A model generated the notes under the pieces. It ran no database searches and was not told the origin of the DNA. It saw only the letters and a list, made by a program, of their open reading frames with translations. Shown one piece after another: positions 48,617-61,602 of a DNA stretch of 64,000 nt. The position numbers and the translations under genes are program-made. Origin of the DNA: Bradymonas sediminis (GTDB taxonomy: Bacteria > Myxococcota_A > Bradymonadia > Bradymonadales > Bradymonadaceae); NCBI RefSeq assembly GCF_003258315.1, contig NZ_CP030032.1, positions 1,154,001 through 1,218,000 of the forward strand. The letters run 5' to 3'. How positions within the stretch are numbered: position 1 is the stretch's first letter; every line of letters begins with the position of its first letter.

Positions 48617-48976
48617 TTATTTTTCCCAGGGTTTTTTCGGATGGGGCTCGTAATTCTCGAGGATCTCCTCGGGATGATCGATGAGCTCGCGCAGATATTC
48701 GAAGGAGTACACGCCGGTATTGTGCCCATCGCCCCAGGCGATGCAGGCGGCGTAATTGCCGACCTGGGTGATGTCGCTGACGACGATCTGTCGGTGGAAT
48801 CCGGGCGGGTTCCACTTCATCGGCCGACTGCCGTGCCCCTGGCAATGTGCGCAGGGGCAATAGCCGCGCAGCATCATCAAATCATAGTCGAAGGTCTTAT
48901 CATCGCTGAATTTGATGCGCAGGATATCTTTATCCTGAATATAATTGAATTCGGTGGGGTGCGGATAATAACTCAT
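48617..48976 (-). CDS. DUF971 domain protein
   Basis: The 119-residue protein is a single DUF971 domain (gamma-butyrobetaine hydroxylase N-terminal-like). Its zinc-site segment is LRGYCPCAHCQGHG and the conserved C-terminal core is IAWGDGHNTGVYSFEYLREL. The molecular role of stand-alone DUF971 proteins is not well established; some sit near iron-sulfur genes. The cysteines suggest zinc binding. The ATG starts directly after a short leader. Confidence 0.88.
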   Translation of the reverse strand: MSYYPHPTEFNYIQDKDILRIKFSDDKTFDYDLMMLRGYCPCAHCQGHGSRPMKWNPPGFHRQIVVSDITQVGNYAACIAWGDGHNTGVYSFEYLRELIDHPEEILENYEPHPKKPWEK

Positions 48977-51795: not shown

Positions 51796-53610
51796 TCAGA
51801 GGCGGTCGTGGATATCGTCGTAGACCGAGCAGAAGGGCTCCCACAGGTGTTGGTTCTCGCGGTCTTCGAGCACGTCGGCCTGCGGGCAGGATTCACCGGC
51901 GCTCCACTCAACCCAGGCGTCGCCCTGGCCGACCGACTCGGCGTAGGCGCGGAATCGCTCGTAGCCGTCGCCGCCCTCATCGCGCGCCATAAAGACGGTC
52001 ACGTCCTGGCAGGTGCCGCTCTCGGGGTCTTCCATATGATTGAGGTTATACTCCATGATCAGGTCGTACATCGCCGCGGTCGACGCGTTCCAGCAACAGG
52101 TCTTGGAGGCCGAGTAGACGAGCTCTGCGAAGACATAGTCTTCCAGTCTTCGGTAGCGACGGTCGATCTCTTCGGGCGTGATATTCATCTCGGCGCCCAG
52201 GTCATAGAGATCGCGGAAGGCGTCCTCGCGCCCGGTGCGCGCCGCGCAGCTCGACGGGTAGCTCTGAAGGTGTGCGCGCTTGGAGTTGATGACCTCGAGG
52301 ACCACGTCCATCTTTGCTTCGGTGTCCAACTCGCTGAGGAGCTCCTCGAAGCGCGCGGGGCGCTCAGACAGCTCGCTATGGTTATTCGAGTTGATGAAGG
52401 ATGCGCGGTCATTTGGCGGGACTACGTTGGTCCAGCGACCGTCGATATTGGTCGCCTGGCGCCAGCGCTTCAGCCCGCCACCGAAGGTTTCGTAGCCCGG
52501 GCCGCCGGTCTCATCCATCGTGAAATAGCGTTTGCTCGCCGGGGCGTCGTCCCATTTGGGCTGACGGCGCGGCATCGAGCCGCTGGCGAGCTCCGCTTCC
52601 AATTGCTTCATCTCCTGGCCGGCGACCTCCTGGGTGCCCAGGTCGCGGGTGCGCATCACCGCCAGGGCATGGCCGATGCCCCTGCGCTGCCAGCGCTCAA
52701 GCAGCATATCGCCGGCCTGCACGGCCTCGGGCGCCAGGTTAAAGGTGTTGACGGAGTCGGCCAGGTTGATGGAGCCGAAATAGGTCAACTGAAGGCGCAT
52801 AAAATAGCCGACGCGCTTATTGAGATAGATCTCGTCGAAATAAGCGCCGGCGTGTTTGGTCTCGCCGTCGGCCGATTCGAGCATGGGCTGGGCGTCGTCG
52901 AAGGAGCCGGGGATGCTCAGGCCTGCGAGTTTGGGGTCGCTCGGCCATTCGATCTCACCGTCGCGATAGGCCTGCGCCTGGCTGCTATAGTCGGCGTAGC
53001 GGGTCTTGAATTTCGGCATGTTGCCCCAGCGTCCGTCCGCGGTGCGCAGGCCGAAGTGCCCGAAATAAAGGCGTTTTCCACCATCGGTGGCTTCCATAAA
53101 ATAGGGCAGGCCGTACCAACTGGCGAAGGTGACGCGCAAAAAGATAAGGACCTCTGCGCATTCGAGCGCGGGCGCCGGCAGCGTCTTTCCCCAGGGCGTC
53201 GTGAGGGTAAACGTTTCGCCGTAACCAATGCTGTCGATGCGCTCAAAAGAGCTGATCCACGCGCGGTATTTTTCTTCCCAATCCAGGCCGCTGTTTTCGG
53301 GCCAGGCGATGCCTGCCTTGCGCGCCGCGGGGGTGTCGGTGTCGGTCCAGGCGTTGGTGACCTCCCAGACCGCGGTCGATGATTCATCGACCGAGACCGG
53401 AAGTCCGCGGCGACCGCTGGTCGAATCCAACTTGCCGGCGGGTTCGACCCAACCGGTATTTCCAAGCGTGGGTTTGCCGTTCTCATCGACCTCGCCGCCC
53501 TGTTCGAGCAGGTTGGGCTCCGACTGCGTCGCCTCGCCGCAGGCGGAGATGAGCAGGATTAGAATACTTAGGATCGCCAAAAGCGGCAGATATTTGGTTC
53601 GGTTTTGCAT
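51796..53610 (-). CDS. Lipoprotein with C-GD-H papain-like peptidase pattern
   Basis: The 604-residue predicted lipoprotein has lipobox LLISAC near residue 24. Three features in order resemble papain-like/NlpC-type folds: a Cys in ALECAEVLIFLRVTFASWYG (about residue 150), a GD in QAGDMLLERWQ (about 300) and a His in GIGHALAVMRT (about 315). The C-terminal half is helical with several Cys (SKTCCWNAS). Peptidase activity is a hypothesis only; the rest matches no family I know. I use the ATG at 53610 because the likely promoter (53669-53696) leaves a normal leader; 53652 would leave about 10 nt. Confidence 0.68.
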   Translation of the reverse strand: MQNRTKYLPLLAILSILILLISACGEATQSEPNLLEQGGEVDENGKPTLGNTGWVEPAGKLDSTSGRRGLPVSVDESSTAVWEVTNAWTDTDTPAARKAGIAWPENSGLDWEEKYRAWISSFERIDSIGYGETFTLTTPWGKTLPAPALECAEVLIFLRVTFASWYGLPYFMEATDGGKRLYFGHFGLRTADGRWGNMPKFKTRYADYSSQAQAYRDGEIEWPSDPKLAGLSIPGSFDDAQPMLESADGETKHAGAYFDEIYLNKRVGYFMRLQLTYFGSINLADSVNTFNLAPEAVQAGDMLLERWQRRGIGHALAVMRTRDLGTQEVAGQEMKQLEAELASGSMPRRQPKWDDAPASKRYFTMDETGGPGYETFGGGLKRWRQATNIDGRWTNVVPPNDRASFINSNNHSELSERPARFEELLSELDTEAKMDVVLEVINSKRAHLQSYPSSCAARTGREDAFRDLYDLGAEMNITPEEIDRRYRRLEDYVFAELVYSASKTCCWNASTAAMYDLIMEYNLNHMEDPESGTCQDVTVFMARDEGGDGYERFRAYAESVGQGDAWVEWSAGESCPQADVLEDRENQHLWEPFCSVYDDIHDRL

Positions 53611-53668
53611 CGTCGAAGACGCCTTTTGAGAATCACTGGGATTAGGTTTCATGATATAATTTTCGCAC

Positions 53669-53696
53669 ACTATAGTATGAACGATCACAAATCCAA
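53669..53696 (-). promoter_or_regulatory. Sigma-70-type promoter for the 51796-53610 lipoprotein gene
   Basis: Minus-strand TTGGAT (53696-53691) and TATAGT (53674-53669) are 16 nt apart. Transcription would start near 53662. Confidence 0.45.
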
Positions 53697-56046: not shown

Positions 56047-59000
56047 ATGACTGTGATTCCTGTTGGCGCGTTGATTCGAAATCGAAAAGCACCCGAGCTT
56101 GGCTCGGGGCGCATCCTCAGCGAATTGGAGGGAGGCTTCGCCCGCGTTATTTTCGAGAACTCGGAAGACGTCCAAGACGTGCGCCTGGCGCATACTGACA
56201 TCGTGCGCCAGCCGCTGATTCCCGGCACGCGGGTTCGGGTGCAGAAGGGCGCGCGCGCCAGCGAGGCCGAGATTACCCGGGTGAAGTGGCCGGAGACGCC
56301 GCGAGACCTGTGCAGCTATGTGGTGCGCCAGCACGGGCTGGAAGAGGAGTTGCTTGAGTCGCAGGTGGCCCCGCTGGCCCCGGCGACCTCTTCGCCGGTC
56401 GACGCCCTCGGCGCGCTGCATTGGCGCGGGCCGTTTCGATTCTTTTCGCGCTGGGATATGCACCGCATGGTGTCGGGTTGGTACGAGGATTCCGAGGGGC
56501 TTCCCAGCACCATCGGCGCGCGTATTCAGCCGGCCTTGCACCACGCACACGCGGTACGCCGAGTCCTGTGGGACGGCACCTGCCGCTATTTTCTGGCCGA
56601 CGAAGATGTCCAGGCGCGCCTCTTTGAGGCGGCCATGGTCTATCAGCGCATGTGCGCGGCCGACGGCGCGCTGCGCGTGTTGGTGATCGCCCCGGGACGC
56701 CGCACGCATCGCTGGCAAAGTGAGCTGGAGCTACGATTCGGCAACCGCGATTTTGTGCGCATCGACGCCTCGCATCTTGACCTGAACCCACAGGACCGCT
56801 GGGGCGCGATTAGCCAGAATCAGCGCCTTATCATGTCGATGACTTGCTTCCAGCAATATCCGGAGCTGCTGGGCGAGCTGGTCCTCGGCGATATCTGGGA
56901 TCTTGTGATCATCGACGATATCCATCGTTTACGCGCGCAGGACCCGATTACCCAATGCCTCAGAGAATATAGCGCGAATATGACGAACCTCCTGTTGCTC
57001 GGCGCCTTGCCCGAGCAGGCTGATGCGCGCGCCTGGGAGCCGATTCTGTCGATTCTTCACGGGGAGTCGGTCGATGGGGATGTCGAAGATCCGCAGGCGC
57101 GCATCGACGCGTTGAGTGAGGTTTGGAGCGCCACCCTGCGGGCCCGCGATCTTCTGCGCGCCTCGGAGGACGAGGACGCGCTGGACGAGGCCCAGGCTTC
57201 GGAGGTCGCCGATGCGCTCGTCGCGCTGCTCGGCGACGATGAGTTCGTGGTTGAGAAAGCCGACGAGGTTCGCGACGCCGACCTCGACGCGCTCGGGCAG
57301 TTGGTTGGCTATCTGCAGCGCAATTATCGCCTCGAGCCCCGCGTGGTGCGCACGCGGCGCGAGCACCTCGAGAGCCAGGACGTCTTCTGGAGCGAACGCA
57401 GCGTCGAGACCCTCAACTATACCCCTGATTCGAGCGAGCAGGCGCTGGTCGAGCATCTGCAATCGCTGCCGCCGGCGAGCCCCTTGGACCCGCTTCAAAT
57501 GGCCCTTCGCGGGTATTATTATCAGGCCGCCGCGGGCTCGCCGGATCGCTTCTTTAGCATGCTCGAGGCGCGCCTCGACGCCCTCGACACCACCGCCGGC
57601 AAGGCCCATCAGGACCTGGCCATCTTCGATATCCTCGATATGGATTTGGGCCCGCGTGAGGAGCGACTTTTCCGCGAAAAGGTCATCGCGGGAGCCGGCG
57701 CGCTGCCCGAAGAGATTGTCTGGATCGTCGACGCGATGAGCCTGGTGGGGCAATGGCACGCGGATTCGGCCAGCGGGTGCGCGCGCTTTCAAGCCGCCGC
57801 AGGTTGGATGGAGGCACGCCTGGCCGAAGGAAGTTCGGCCGACTCCCCGTCAGATGATGACGAGGCGGAGGAGCAGAAACAGCGCGTATCTCCCAAGATG
57901 GTCGTCTATTGTGCCTCGGCCGAGATGGTCCGCGATGCCTGCGAGTTCTTCCGAAATCAATTCGGCGAAGCCCGCGTTGAGATGATTCACAGCGGCATGG
58001 CCAATGACGTCCAGAATGAGGCCGTGGAGTGCTTCGGCTACGACCGCGATTGTCGCGTCCTCGTTTGCGAGGAGACTGGCGCGCAGGGCCGTGACATCTC
58101 GGTTGCAGATGTCATCATTCATCTCACCCAGCCCTGGTCTGCGACCCGGGTCGAGCGCCGTATTTCACAGGTCGATACGGTCGGACGTGCGCAGGAATCG
58201 CCGATTCAATCGGTTGTCCTCGTCGGCCCTTCGCGTCACGAACAACTCTTACACCAACTTTATGCAGAGGACCTGGAGCTCTATAGTACGGCCTCGTTGG
58301 CGCATGAATATACGATCGCTGATGTTGACCTGCGACTCGGCCGCGCCGCATCCGGCGGACCCGAAGAACTCGAAGAGGTGATCGAGCTTCTCCGCGAGAG
58401 CCTGCTTCAAACGCTTTCGTCCGATGAGGTGGCCCCGGCGACCGCCGCCTACCAGGCGATCTTTGACCCCAGCGACCGACTCCTCGAAGAGGATGCTGAG
58501 TTTTGCGAACTGCTTGAATTTGTTGACGGAATCGCCGATTCGCTGCCGGTGCGCCACTGGGCCCGTATGCTCGGGATTCAGGACCATTCCGGCGGGCCGG
58601 GCGCGTTCGATTTTAAATGGCATTGGGCCAACGTTCGACGTGCGCTGGCAGGGTATCCGGTCGGCCCCGAAGACGTCGATATCCTCTTGCCCGAGGAGCA
58701 GGTCGGGATGCACACCGGCACATTTAGCCGAAAGCGGGCGCTTCGCAGCGAGGGGCTGGAGTTCTTTGGCCCGGGCCATCAATTCGTGGACGCGCTGGTC
58801 GAAGACGCGATGGTCGGCAACGCGCTGCCCGCTCCGGGGTTCGTCAGCGGCATGGAGTTATACGACGCCCAAGAGCATCAGGACGGGCGAAGCACCGTCT
58901 TCGCGCGTCGTCTGGGGCCCGAGAACCGCGGCAAGACGTTCCTGAATATCGTCTTCGCGGCGCGCCTGGACCGAAGCGCATGGGAAGGGCTCGATATGCC

Positions 59001-59493
59001 GCAGGGGCTTATTAACCGGGCGTATCGACACCTCTGGCCCGAGGCGCTCTCGGTGTCGGTCGAGATCGATCTCAAGGGGCGTCGCCAGCCGAAATTGGTC
59101 CAAGACCGCGCGCTGCTTCAGCGCATTGAGGGCAATTATCAGGGCCCCGAGGCCGACCAGAAGATCGAATACGAACTCTTTATCCAGGCCATCGAAGATG
59201 TCGCGCGCTTTCGCGAGACTCTCAATAGCGCCGTGTTGCTCGCCTCGACCAACCTCGCGGCGGAACGCGAGGGCCTGGTCGACGGGGCCGTGGCCGAGCT
59301 TGGCGATGACATCGCCGAAGAGATGGCCTTCTTGCGCACGCAGGTCGCGCGCAGCGACGACCCCGACAATTGCGAGGCGGCGTTGCAAATCGAGCTCTAC
59401 GAGCGTCTGCTCGAGAGCGTTCGTCTGGAGAAGCTCGATATCGACGCGATTGCGGTTATCGTCGCCGGCTCGCCGCAGATTTTGAGAGACTAG
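56047..59493 (+). CDS. RapA-like SNF2-family protein with degenerate ATPase motifs
   Basis: The 1148-residue protein aligns in order with RapA, the RNA-polymerase-recycling SNF2 ATPase. An N-terminal Tudor-like domain (PELGSGRILSELEGGFARVI) is followed by a pre-helicase block (IGARIQPALHHAHAVRRVL). In lobe 1 the Walker A position reads LADEDVQARL (183-192) instead of LADEVGLGKT, and the DEAH box reads DDIH (290-293). Lobe 2 has IHSGMANDVQNEAVECF, LVCEETGAQGRDISVADVII and, at motif VI, RRISQVDTVGR (704-714) in place of the arginine fingers. A RapA-type C-terminal domain (TFSRKRALRSEGLEFFGPGH) remains. It is probably unable to hydrolyse ATP and may still bind RNA polymerase. Confidence 0.85.
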   Translation: MTVIPVGALIRNRKAPELGSGRILSELEGGFARVIFENSEDVQDVRLAHTDIVRQPLIPGTRVRVQKGARASEAEITRVKWPETPRDLCSYVVRQHGLEEELLESQVAPLAPATSSPVDALGALHWRGPFRFFSRWDMHRMVSGWYEDSEGLPSTIGARIQPALHHAHAVRRVLWDGTCRYFLADEDVQARLFEAAMVYQRMCAADGALRVLVIAPGRRTHRWQSELELRFGNRDFVRIDASHLDLNPQDRWGAISQNQRLIMSMTCFQQYPELLGELVLGDIWDLVIIDDIHRLRAQDPITQCLREYSANMTNLLLLGALPEQADARAWEPILSILHGESVDGDVEDPQARIDALSEVWSATLRARDLLRASEDEDALDEAQASEVADALVALLGDDEFVVEKADEVRDADLDALGQLVGYLQRNYRLEPRVVRTRREHLESQDVFWSERSVETLNYTPDSSEQALVEHLQSLPPASPLDPLQMALRGYYYQAAAGSPDRFFSMLEARLDALDTTAGKAHQDLAIFDILDMDLGPREERLFREKVIAGAGALPEEIVWIVDAMSLVGQWHADSASGCARFQAAAGWMEARLAEGSSADSPSDDDEAEEQKQRVSPKMVVYCASAEMVRDACEFFRNQFGEARVEMIHSGMANDVQNEAVECFGYDRDCRVLVCEETGAQGRDISVADVIIHLTQPWSATRVERRISQVDTVGRAQESPIQSVVLVGPSRHEQLLHQLYAEDLELYSTASLAHEYTIADVDLRLGRAASGGPEELEEVIELLRESLLQTLSSDEVAPATAAYQAIFDPSDRLLEEDAEFCELLEFVDGIADSLPVRHWARMLGIQDHSGGPGAFDFKWHWANVRRALAGYPVGPEDVDILLPEEQVGMHTGTFSRKRALRSEGLEFFGPGHQFVDALVEDAMVGNALPAPGFVSGMELYDAQEHQDGRSTVFARRLGPENRGKTFLNIVFAARLDRSAWEGLDMPQGLINRAYRHLWPEALSVSVEIDLKGRRQPKLVQDRALLQRIEGNYQGPEADQKIEYELFIQAIEDVARFRETLNSAVLLASTNLAAEREGLVDGAVAELGDDIAEEMAFLRTQVARSDDPDNCEAALQIELYERLLESVRLEKLDIDAIAVIVAGSPQILRD

Positions 59494-60926: not shown

Positions 60927-61541
60927 TTATTTGACGGTCGTCTGGCTTTTGAACGGTTTGCCGAGGAGCGAACCGTTGAACTGAACGCTTGCAGCGCCTT
61001 TGCGCACTTCACCCGTGACTTTGACGGACGATTTGCCAGCTTTGCCTTCAGCGGTGATTTTGTTGTCTTTCGACAGCTTGCCACGGAAGGGAACGCGGAT
61101 GTTGTTGCCTTCGCTCTTACCGGTGAGCGTTCCCGTGACGTCGTATTTGCTGGTGACGACGAGCTCAACAGCGCCGTCCTGCAGGCCGATGGCGCCAACG
61201 CTGCCTTTGAGGCGACCGACGTGTGCCGGCGTAGCGGGCTTCGGAGCCGGCTTTTTCGCTTCAGCGGCTTTCTCTTCGCCTTCGGCTTCAGCGGTTGCGT
61301 CGCCTTCTTCAGCGGCTTCACCGGCGTCGCCTTCAGCGGCTTCTTCGACGTCAGCTTCTTCAGCAGCTTCTTCTGCTTCCTCTTCAGCCTCTTCTTCGGC
61401 TTCTTCTTCAGCAGCTTCTTCTTCGGCGGCGACTTCGACAGCAGCTTCTTCGTCGACGGCCTCTTCCTGCTTTTTACAAGCCGGAATCATGAGACCAGCG
61501 GACATCAAGAGGACACAGAACATTTTAAGCGAAGACTTCAT
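60927..61541 (-). CDS. Ala/Glu-rich lipoprotein with beta-rich C-terminal domain
   Basis: The 204-residue predicted lipoprotein has lipobox MIPAC near residue 22. A 70-residue segment is almost entirely Ala and Glu (EEEAEEEAEEEAEEAAEEAD and similar), probably an extended helix or highly charged stalk. A Lys/Pro/Ala hinge follows. The C-terminal ~90-residue domain has regular short strands (GRLKGSVGAIGLQDGAVELV, NIRVPFRGKLSKDNKITAEG). GGAG lies 6 nt before the ATG at 61541; the ATG one codon earlier is closer than ideal. Function unknown. Confidence 0.82.
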   Translation of the reverse strand: MKSSLKMFCVLLMSAGLMIPACKKQEEAVDEEAAVEVAAEEEAAEEEAEEEAEEEAEEAAEEADVEEAAEGDAGEAAEEGDATAEAEGEEKAAEAKKPAPKPATPAHVGRLKGSVGAIGLQDGAVELVVTSKYDVTGTLTGKSEGNNIRVPFRGKLSKDNKITAEGKAGKSSVKVTGEVRKGAASVQFNGSLLGKPFKSQTTVK

Positions 61542-61602
61542 CATAAACTCCCTATTCAATAAATTAGGATAACTATATCGGCAGACTTTATTTTAAACGA
61601 AT

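Follow-up and report, generated by a model that had tools for sequence, protein, structure and literature searches.

Full-length SNF2 proteins are usually regarded as ATP-driven motors. A gene of Bradymonas sediminis encodes a 1148-aa protein with the domain order and fold of one such motor, RapA, yet its ATP site has been rewritten, which raises the question of what a complete SNF2 protein is kept for when its motor is dead. The gene lies in a 64,000-nucleotide stretch of contig NZ_CP030032.1 (positions 1,154,001 to 1,218,000), here called the window; the host genome is a single contig of 5.05 Mb. We infer that the gene probably encodes a pseudo-ATPase descended from DpdE, now orphaned and retained as a scaffold that binds nucleic acid or protein without ATP.

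Architecture and ATP-site motifs

The RapA-type architecture is found by profile and by predicted structure. A profile of the window protein and its four orthologues has E. coli RapA as its top PDB match (1e-39), collinear over residues 17-443, 609-781, 883-922 and 1008-1111, with the segments 883-922 and 1008-1111 individually weak. The AlphaFold2 model of the window protein (pLDDT 82.9, pTM 0.84) was built on 41 rows, comprising the protein itself, three other members and 37 viral SNF2 proteins; these 37 active rows bias the model's lobes toward the canonical fold. A first model from four rows (pLDDT 55.9) was dropped as poor. The five top Foldseek matches in the PDB are all RapA (6bog, 4.3e-36 over 1179 columns), and VIA-align places residues 113-1148 on RapA 107-968 (Z 22.0, rmsd 6.3, 833 aligned residues). 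The RapA architecture claimed in the first-pass annotation is present, as is the RapA fold.

Helicase_C is the sole Pfam domain above cut-off (45 bits) and, together with Foldseek and VIA-align, supports two RecA-like lobes of SNF2 type. Pfam RapA_C gives sub-cut-off matches in three of the five members, the window protein not among them, and Tudor_RapA has no match in the window protein. The N-terminal 110 residues form beta strands in the model and fall outside the VIA-align alignment; they look Tudor-like, to judge from the RapA profile match that begins at residue 17 and from their position. The N-terminal region also holds a conserved stretch, WRGPF...EDSEGLP..GAR.

Table 1. Features of the gene in window coordinates. 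Domain boundaries (residues 160, 341, 600 and 770) were placed by eye.
Feature	Residues	Coordinates	Strand	Remarks
Putative pseudo-DpdE/RapA-like SNF2 gene		56047..59493	+	ORF, 1148 aa
N-terminal region	1-160	56047..56526	+	beta-rich; Tudor-like by position
SNF2 core lobe 1	161-341	56527..57069	+	
Former Walker A (motif I), VQARL	188-192	56608..56622	+	
Former DEAH box (motif II), DDIH	290-293	56914..56925	+	
Helical insert separating the lobes	342-600	57070..57846	+	
Lobe 2	601-770	57847..58356	+	Pfam Helicase_C at 614-706
Degenerate motif VI (Q708, T711)	703-714	58153..58188	+	
RapA/DpdE-type C-terminal domains	771-1148	58357..59490	+	profile, Foldseek, VIA-align
GPENRGKT, chance GxxxxGKT match	957-964	58915..58938	+	absent from the other four members

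In an alignment of the five members and 14 other SNF2 proteins, V188 Q189 A190 R191 L192 lie ungapped under GLGKT, D290 D291 I292 H293 lie under DEAH, and motif VI carries Q708 and T711; the first-pass annotation had given these replacements and the coordinates of the reading frame exactly. The ATP-site residues of RapA are reported as K183, E281 and R599 (PMC8501970) and correspond to R191, D291 and T711 of the window protein. Across the five members, the Walker A lysine position is invariably arginine (RRRRR; Arg191 in the window protein), the catalytic glutamate is substituted in every case (DDGDQ), and the R599 column reads TQRRR. The former Gly-rich loop varies between members (VQA, AQA, AFD, PTD, PES), and at the seven best-conserved motif I columns none of the 35 cells is kept. 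The model has no phosphate-binding loop: the helix that follows the first strand starts at V188. Of the 485 cells in all 97 columns conserved among 11 RapA/DpdE-type rows, 277 are retained, and the C-terminal columns are mostly intact in all five members.

The earlier claim that every ATPase motif is replaced holds for motif I and the catalytic glutamate, both lost in 5/5, but goes too far elsewhere: P216, W223 and F231 of motif Ia persist in 5/5, and the arginine equivalent to R599 in 3/5. Other motor residues still present are H293 (5/5), D290 (4/5) and R705 (4/5). A different, intact Walker A could have overturned the pseudo-SNF2 reading, but GxxxxGK[ST] occurs just once, as GPENRGKT, which is non-conserved and sits in the C-terminal domain, so that reading stands. 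Walker A Lys and Walker B Glu, which together serve as the criterion for an SNF2 ATPase, are both absent from 5/5 members, and the protein is predicted to lack ATPase activity. It may nevertheless bind nucleotide, since some motor residues persist.

Orthologues, ancestry and constraint

An orthologue search of 57 genomes (the host and its relatives) yielded four other full-length members: G010 (two segments, 60 and 63% identity), G015 (41%), G003 (38%) and G035 (29%); together these orthologues span about 27-61% identity to the window protein. All five genes are free of internal stops and are open across two families. Carriers number 4 of the 21 genomes in the family and, at 1e-20, 5 of 377 in a sample drawn from a larger phylum and scored for two candidates per genome. 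A scan of genome contigs, limited to genomes with matches to two short clade peptides, returned three loci, all of the same genes already found.

The five members form one clade in a careful 26-row tree (100/100) and in a 47-row tree (100 SH-aLRT), and this clade groups with DpdE in both (100/98 and 98 SH-aLRT). The G035 member is on a long branch and DpdE_Paeni is unplaced, so the clade is either sister to DpdE or just inside it. Motif loss is confined to this clade. A census took 98 chosen search loci without a motif filter, some of them overlapping one gene: 96 had a match, 14 of these belonged to the clade's five genes and none of the 14 has G[LA]GKT, two lacked residues at the column, and the other SNF2 loci keep G[LA]GKT in 80 of 80 cases. 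The census is preferred on this point because the unnamed L-rows and nine named rows of the 47-row tree were selected by the GKT pattern; the 37 viral rows were found by GKT-bearing patterns, and an intact motif in them proves nothing. The simplest account is that the ATPase motifs were lost once, in the clade's common ancestor.

Family models give the same affinity. DpdE is described as an SNF2 protein of 7-deazapurine DNA restriction operons (PMC11888242), and its NCBIfam model (NF041062) is the top match of the window protein at 187.9 bits against a cut-off of 500 (protein 18-1140, model 10-1046). RapA (NF003426) is second at 94.5 bits against a cut-off of 576. The other four members score 73.6, 243.1, 167.3 and 209.4 bits on the DpdE model (cut-off 500), and the top three PADLOC models are all DpdE. 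Judged by family models and trees, the nearest branch is DpdE, not RapA. The designation as a RapA homologue is thus sound for fold and architecture and misplaced for family, although both models are matched below cut-off.

Several DpdE and RapA relatives were recorded alongside. DpdE hits over cut-off (L041-L045) have GLGKT in 5/5. Four DpdE loci with intact GLGKT, L041, L042, L043 and L046 (genomes G017, G014, G019 and G002), belong to one genus; the first three exceed the DpdE cut-off, and the G002 copy is a 501-aa piece at a contig end. DpdA was not found in these four genomes, which places their DpdE outside dpd islands. The G019 protein has DQVH in place of DEAH, and a radical-SAM gene, QueE-like by eye with a sub-cut-off Pfam match, lies just upstream of the G002 copy (L114:8289-8993). 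A Trichormus variabilis plasmid carries a DpdE with a degenerate motif VI (L071:6004-9309); the 12.7-kb stretch around it, which extends about 6 kb before the gene and 3.4 kb beyond it, has no further dpd annotation. Full-length DpdE-like proteins occur on two IMG/VR viral contigs (L118 and L119; 36% and 28% identity to G017 DpdE). The phylum also has an active RapA-like family, mostly of about 770-820 aa (L086, L087, L088, L094, L106, L012, L019), which occurs in two genomes of the window host's family; the one member scored reached 338.8 bits on the RapA model, below cut-off.

Selection was compared within the clade. For the window gene against G010, pN is 0.267, pS 0.652 and pN/pS 0.41; for G015 against G003 the values are 0.367, 0.622 and 0.59, with pS near saturation, which makes the ratio a weak measure here. 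Among the five members, 42 of 154 columns are invariant in the N-terminal region (27%), the best-conserved part of the clade, against 18/170 in lobe 1 (11%), 15/173 in the insert, 9/146 in lobe 2 (6%) and 53/314 in the C-terminal domains (17%). Five DpdE proteins have 17/148 (11%), 47/151 (31%), 13/182, 13/140 (9%) and 31/329 (9%) in the same order. The lobes hold 20% of invariant columns in the clade versus 50% in these five DpdE, which were picked from eight rows for similar divergence; with all eight rows, the motor share is 0.65. Constraint has shifted off the motor and onto the terminal domains, and the protein is being retained, though not for its motor.

Genomic setting and possible roles

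The upstream neighbour is a divergent ArsC-family gene and the downstream neighbour a convergent gene without a Pfam match, which leaves the gene without an apparent operon partner. For five neighbours (at 48620, 49040, 51799, 53923 and 55276, all on the minus strand), orthologues with 54-69% identity lie next to the G010 copy. In the nine flanking proteins, Pfam recognises only DUF2270, ArsC (with a sub-threshold glutaredoxin match) and a sub-threshold Nop14. One of the neighbours, at 51799-53688, is a 630-aa lipoprotein-like protein without a Pfam match that is 68% identical to its G010 counterpart. At 60927-61559, a lipoprotein-like ORF with a long Glu/Ala-rich low-complexity stretch is overlapped by a long ORF on the opposite strand.

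A surrounding dpd island was rejected: Pfam finds no dpd family among the nine neighbouring proteins, and none of the five carrier genomes has DpdA in a search that was positive in 2/2 genomes with dpd islands. By PADLOC, the G366 island contains DpdA, DpdB and DpdC, and the G115 island contains DpdF. A mobile or phage origin was also rejected: phages gave no match, viral contigs gave 66 pattern stretches but no relatives, and plasmids gave no match of full length. Band_7 (flotillin-type) and NfeD/YqiJ-like genes lie near the G035 pseudo-DpdE (L037:13849-17189) and near the active G017 DpdE (L073:12714-14547). A link through this cluster was dropped; the two Band_7 proteins are unmatched at 1e-4, and the membrane proteins share a weak 62-residue match. 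The G003 member adjoins an acetate kinase fused to a phosphate propanoyltransferase (PTAC; L036:5812-7653).

The preferred reading builds on a motif loss shared by a single clade, on an architecture and an open frame that have both been kept, and on constraint that has moved to the terminal domains. An SNF2 motor of the DpdE branch, no longer part of a 7-deazapurine restriction cluster, would have been inherited vertically, would have lost ATP binding and hydrolysis once, in the clade ancestor, and would afterwards have been retained for binding by its N-terminal Tudor-like region and RapA-type C-terminal domains. The protein would most likely be a clamp or scaffold that needs no ATP, sits on double-stranded DNA or on a complex containing nucleic acid, and recruits or regulates a partner; it presumably binds nucleic acid, and such a partner presumably exists, although the genes around it in the window point to no candidate. 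The two fused RecA lobes would be a passive nucleic-acid-gripping frame, and the N-terminal region and C-terminal domains would provide the surfaces for docking. A fuller proposition is possible but falls somewhat short of probable: that a complete RapA/DpdE-type SNF2 motor became a fuel-free structural factor, with the Walker A lysine fixed as arginine and the terminal domains as its conserved working part, and that, encoded on its own in the chromosome, it binds nucleic acid or a complex of transcription or replication.

The pocket could instead have been remodelled into a nucleotide sensor, free of a P-loop, that uses Arg191 and the retained Asp and His to switch conformation without hydrolysis. 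This is unlikely. The invariant arginine at the Walker A position and the persistence of H293, D290 and R705 fit such a sensor, but the Gly-rich loop is gone and variable, the model puts a helix at the loop site, and conservation of the lobes is low.

The first-pass annotation proposed that an inactive RapA acts on RNA polymerase, perhaps antagonising an active RapA elsewhere in the genome. RapA is indeed the top PDB match by sequence profile and by fold, and the N-terminal region and C-terminal domains are the best-conserved parts. Against a polymerase role, the protein is nearer DpdE than RapA, the flap-tip patch given for RapA in PMC8501970 is mostly polar in the clade (hydrophobic in 4/30 cells), and the ZBD and alpha/beta contact residues given there are mostly unpreserved. 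This comparison uses one RapA reference row and is partly weak because the lobe 2 alignment at 540-541 is gappy; the flap-tip patch is poorly kept in DpdE also. No RapA over the curated cut-off (576 bits), and hence none to antagonise, was found in any of the five carrier genomes. The host genome has four other SNF2-rel hits; the three that were scanned have the SCO1167 helicase, DrmD and PLD anti-phage helicase models as top matches, all below cut-off. A polymerase role is accordingly quite unlikely.

A defence role, as the sensing half of an antiphage system with its effector elsewhere in the genome or as a decoy for DpdE/DISARM-type helicases, would suit the patchy distribution and the description of the sister family DpdE as a restriction-operon protein (PMC11888242). 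It is nonetheless improbable: Pfam recognises no defence genes among the nine flanking proteins, the neighbourhood is common to the window and G010, plasmids carry no full-length match, and phages and viral contigs carry none at all. Gene decay, or a local mutation in an otherwise active protein, would account for motif positions that differ between members and for lobe identity below that of the termini, but is very improbable, because the reading frame is open in 5/5 genomes across two families, the termini are strongly conserved, GC3 is ordinary (0.755 versus 0.745-0.787 in five neighbours), as the first-pass annotation had judged from codon use, and the four orthologues share the loss of GKT and DEAH, which excludes the local mutation that it had named as a possible refutation.

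Comparison with known systems

A motor-dead clade with stronger constraint on its flanks than on its lobes would reveal which functions of RapA/DpdE-type proteins need binding alone. The scaffold proposed here would be a separation-of-function variant made by nature, with which one could ask what is recognised by the Tudor-like and C-terminal domains of RapA, DpdE and BrxHII. No description of a full-length motor-dead RapA or DpdE was found in the open-licence literature searched.

DpdE is the top full-length family match, the sister in the tree, and equal in architecture and length; the window protein differs in scoring below the DpdE cut-off, in having lost the ATPase motifs, and in its host genome, which is without DpdA. 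RapA (HepA), the RNA polymerase recycling ATPase, shares the domain order and fold and is the top solved-structure match. The window protein is set apart from it by a score far below cut-off, the missing Tudor_RapA match, the dead motor, and polymerase contact residues that seem mostly not preserved in the clade.

BrxHII, the type 3 BREX helicase, has a RapA-like architecture as described in PMC12839542, with a Tudor-like domain, an SNF2 core, and inactive REase-like and alpha+beta C-terminal domains. It is reported there as a helicase within a BREX operon, whereas the window gene is stand-alone and its product motor-dead.

The nearest parallel is DndH. Its SWI2/SNF2 domain is inactive, and a conserved arginine there is proposed to mediate DNA binding (PMC10853773); BREX PglZ is likewise reported to have an inactive SWI2/SNF2 domain (PMC12839542). 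The DndH proposal makes the conservation of Arg191 noteworthy by analogy and worth testing, although Arg191 lies in the other lobe. In all three cases an SNF2-derived module of a prokaryotic protein is without its ATP-site residues. In DndH and PglZ, as those two papers describe them, this module consists of one second-lobe domain embedded in a larger defence protein, whereas the window protein stands alone with both lobes and all RapA-type flanks.
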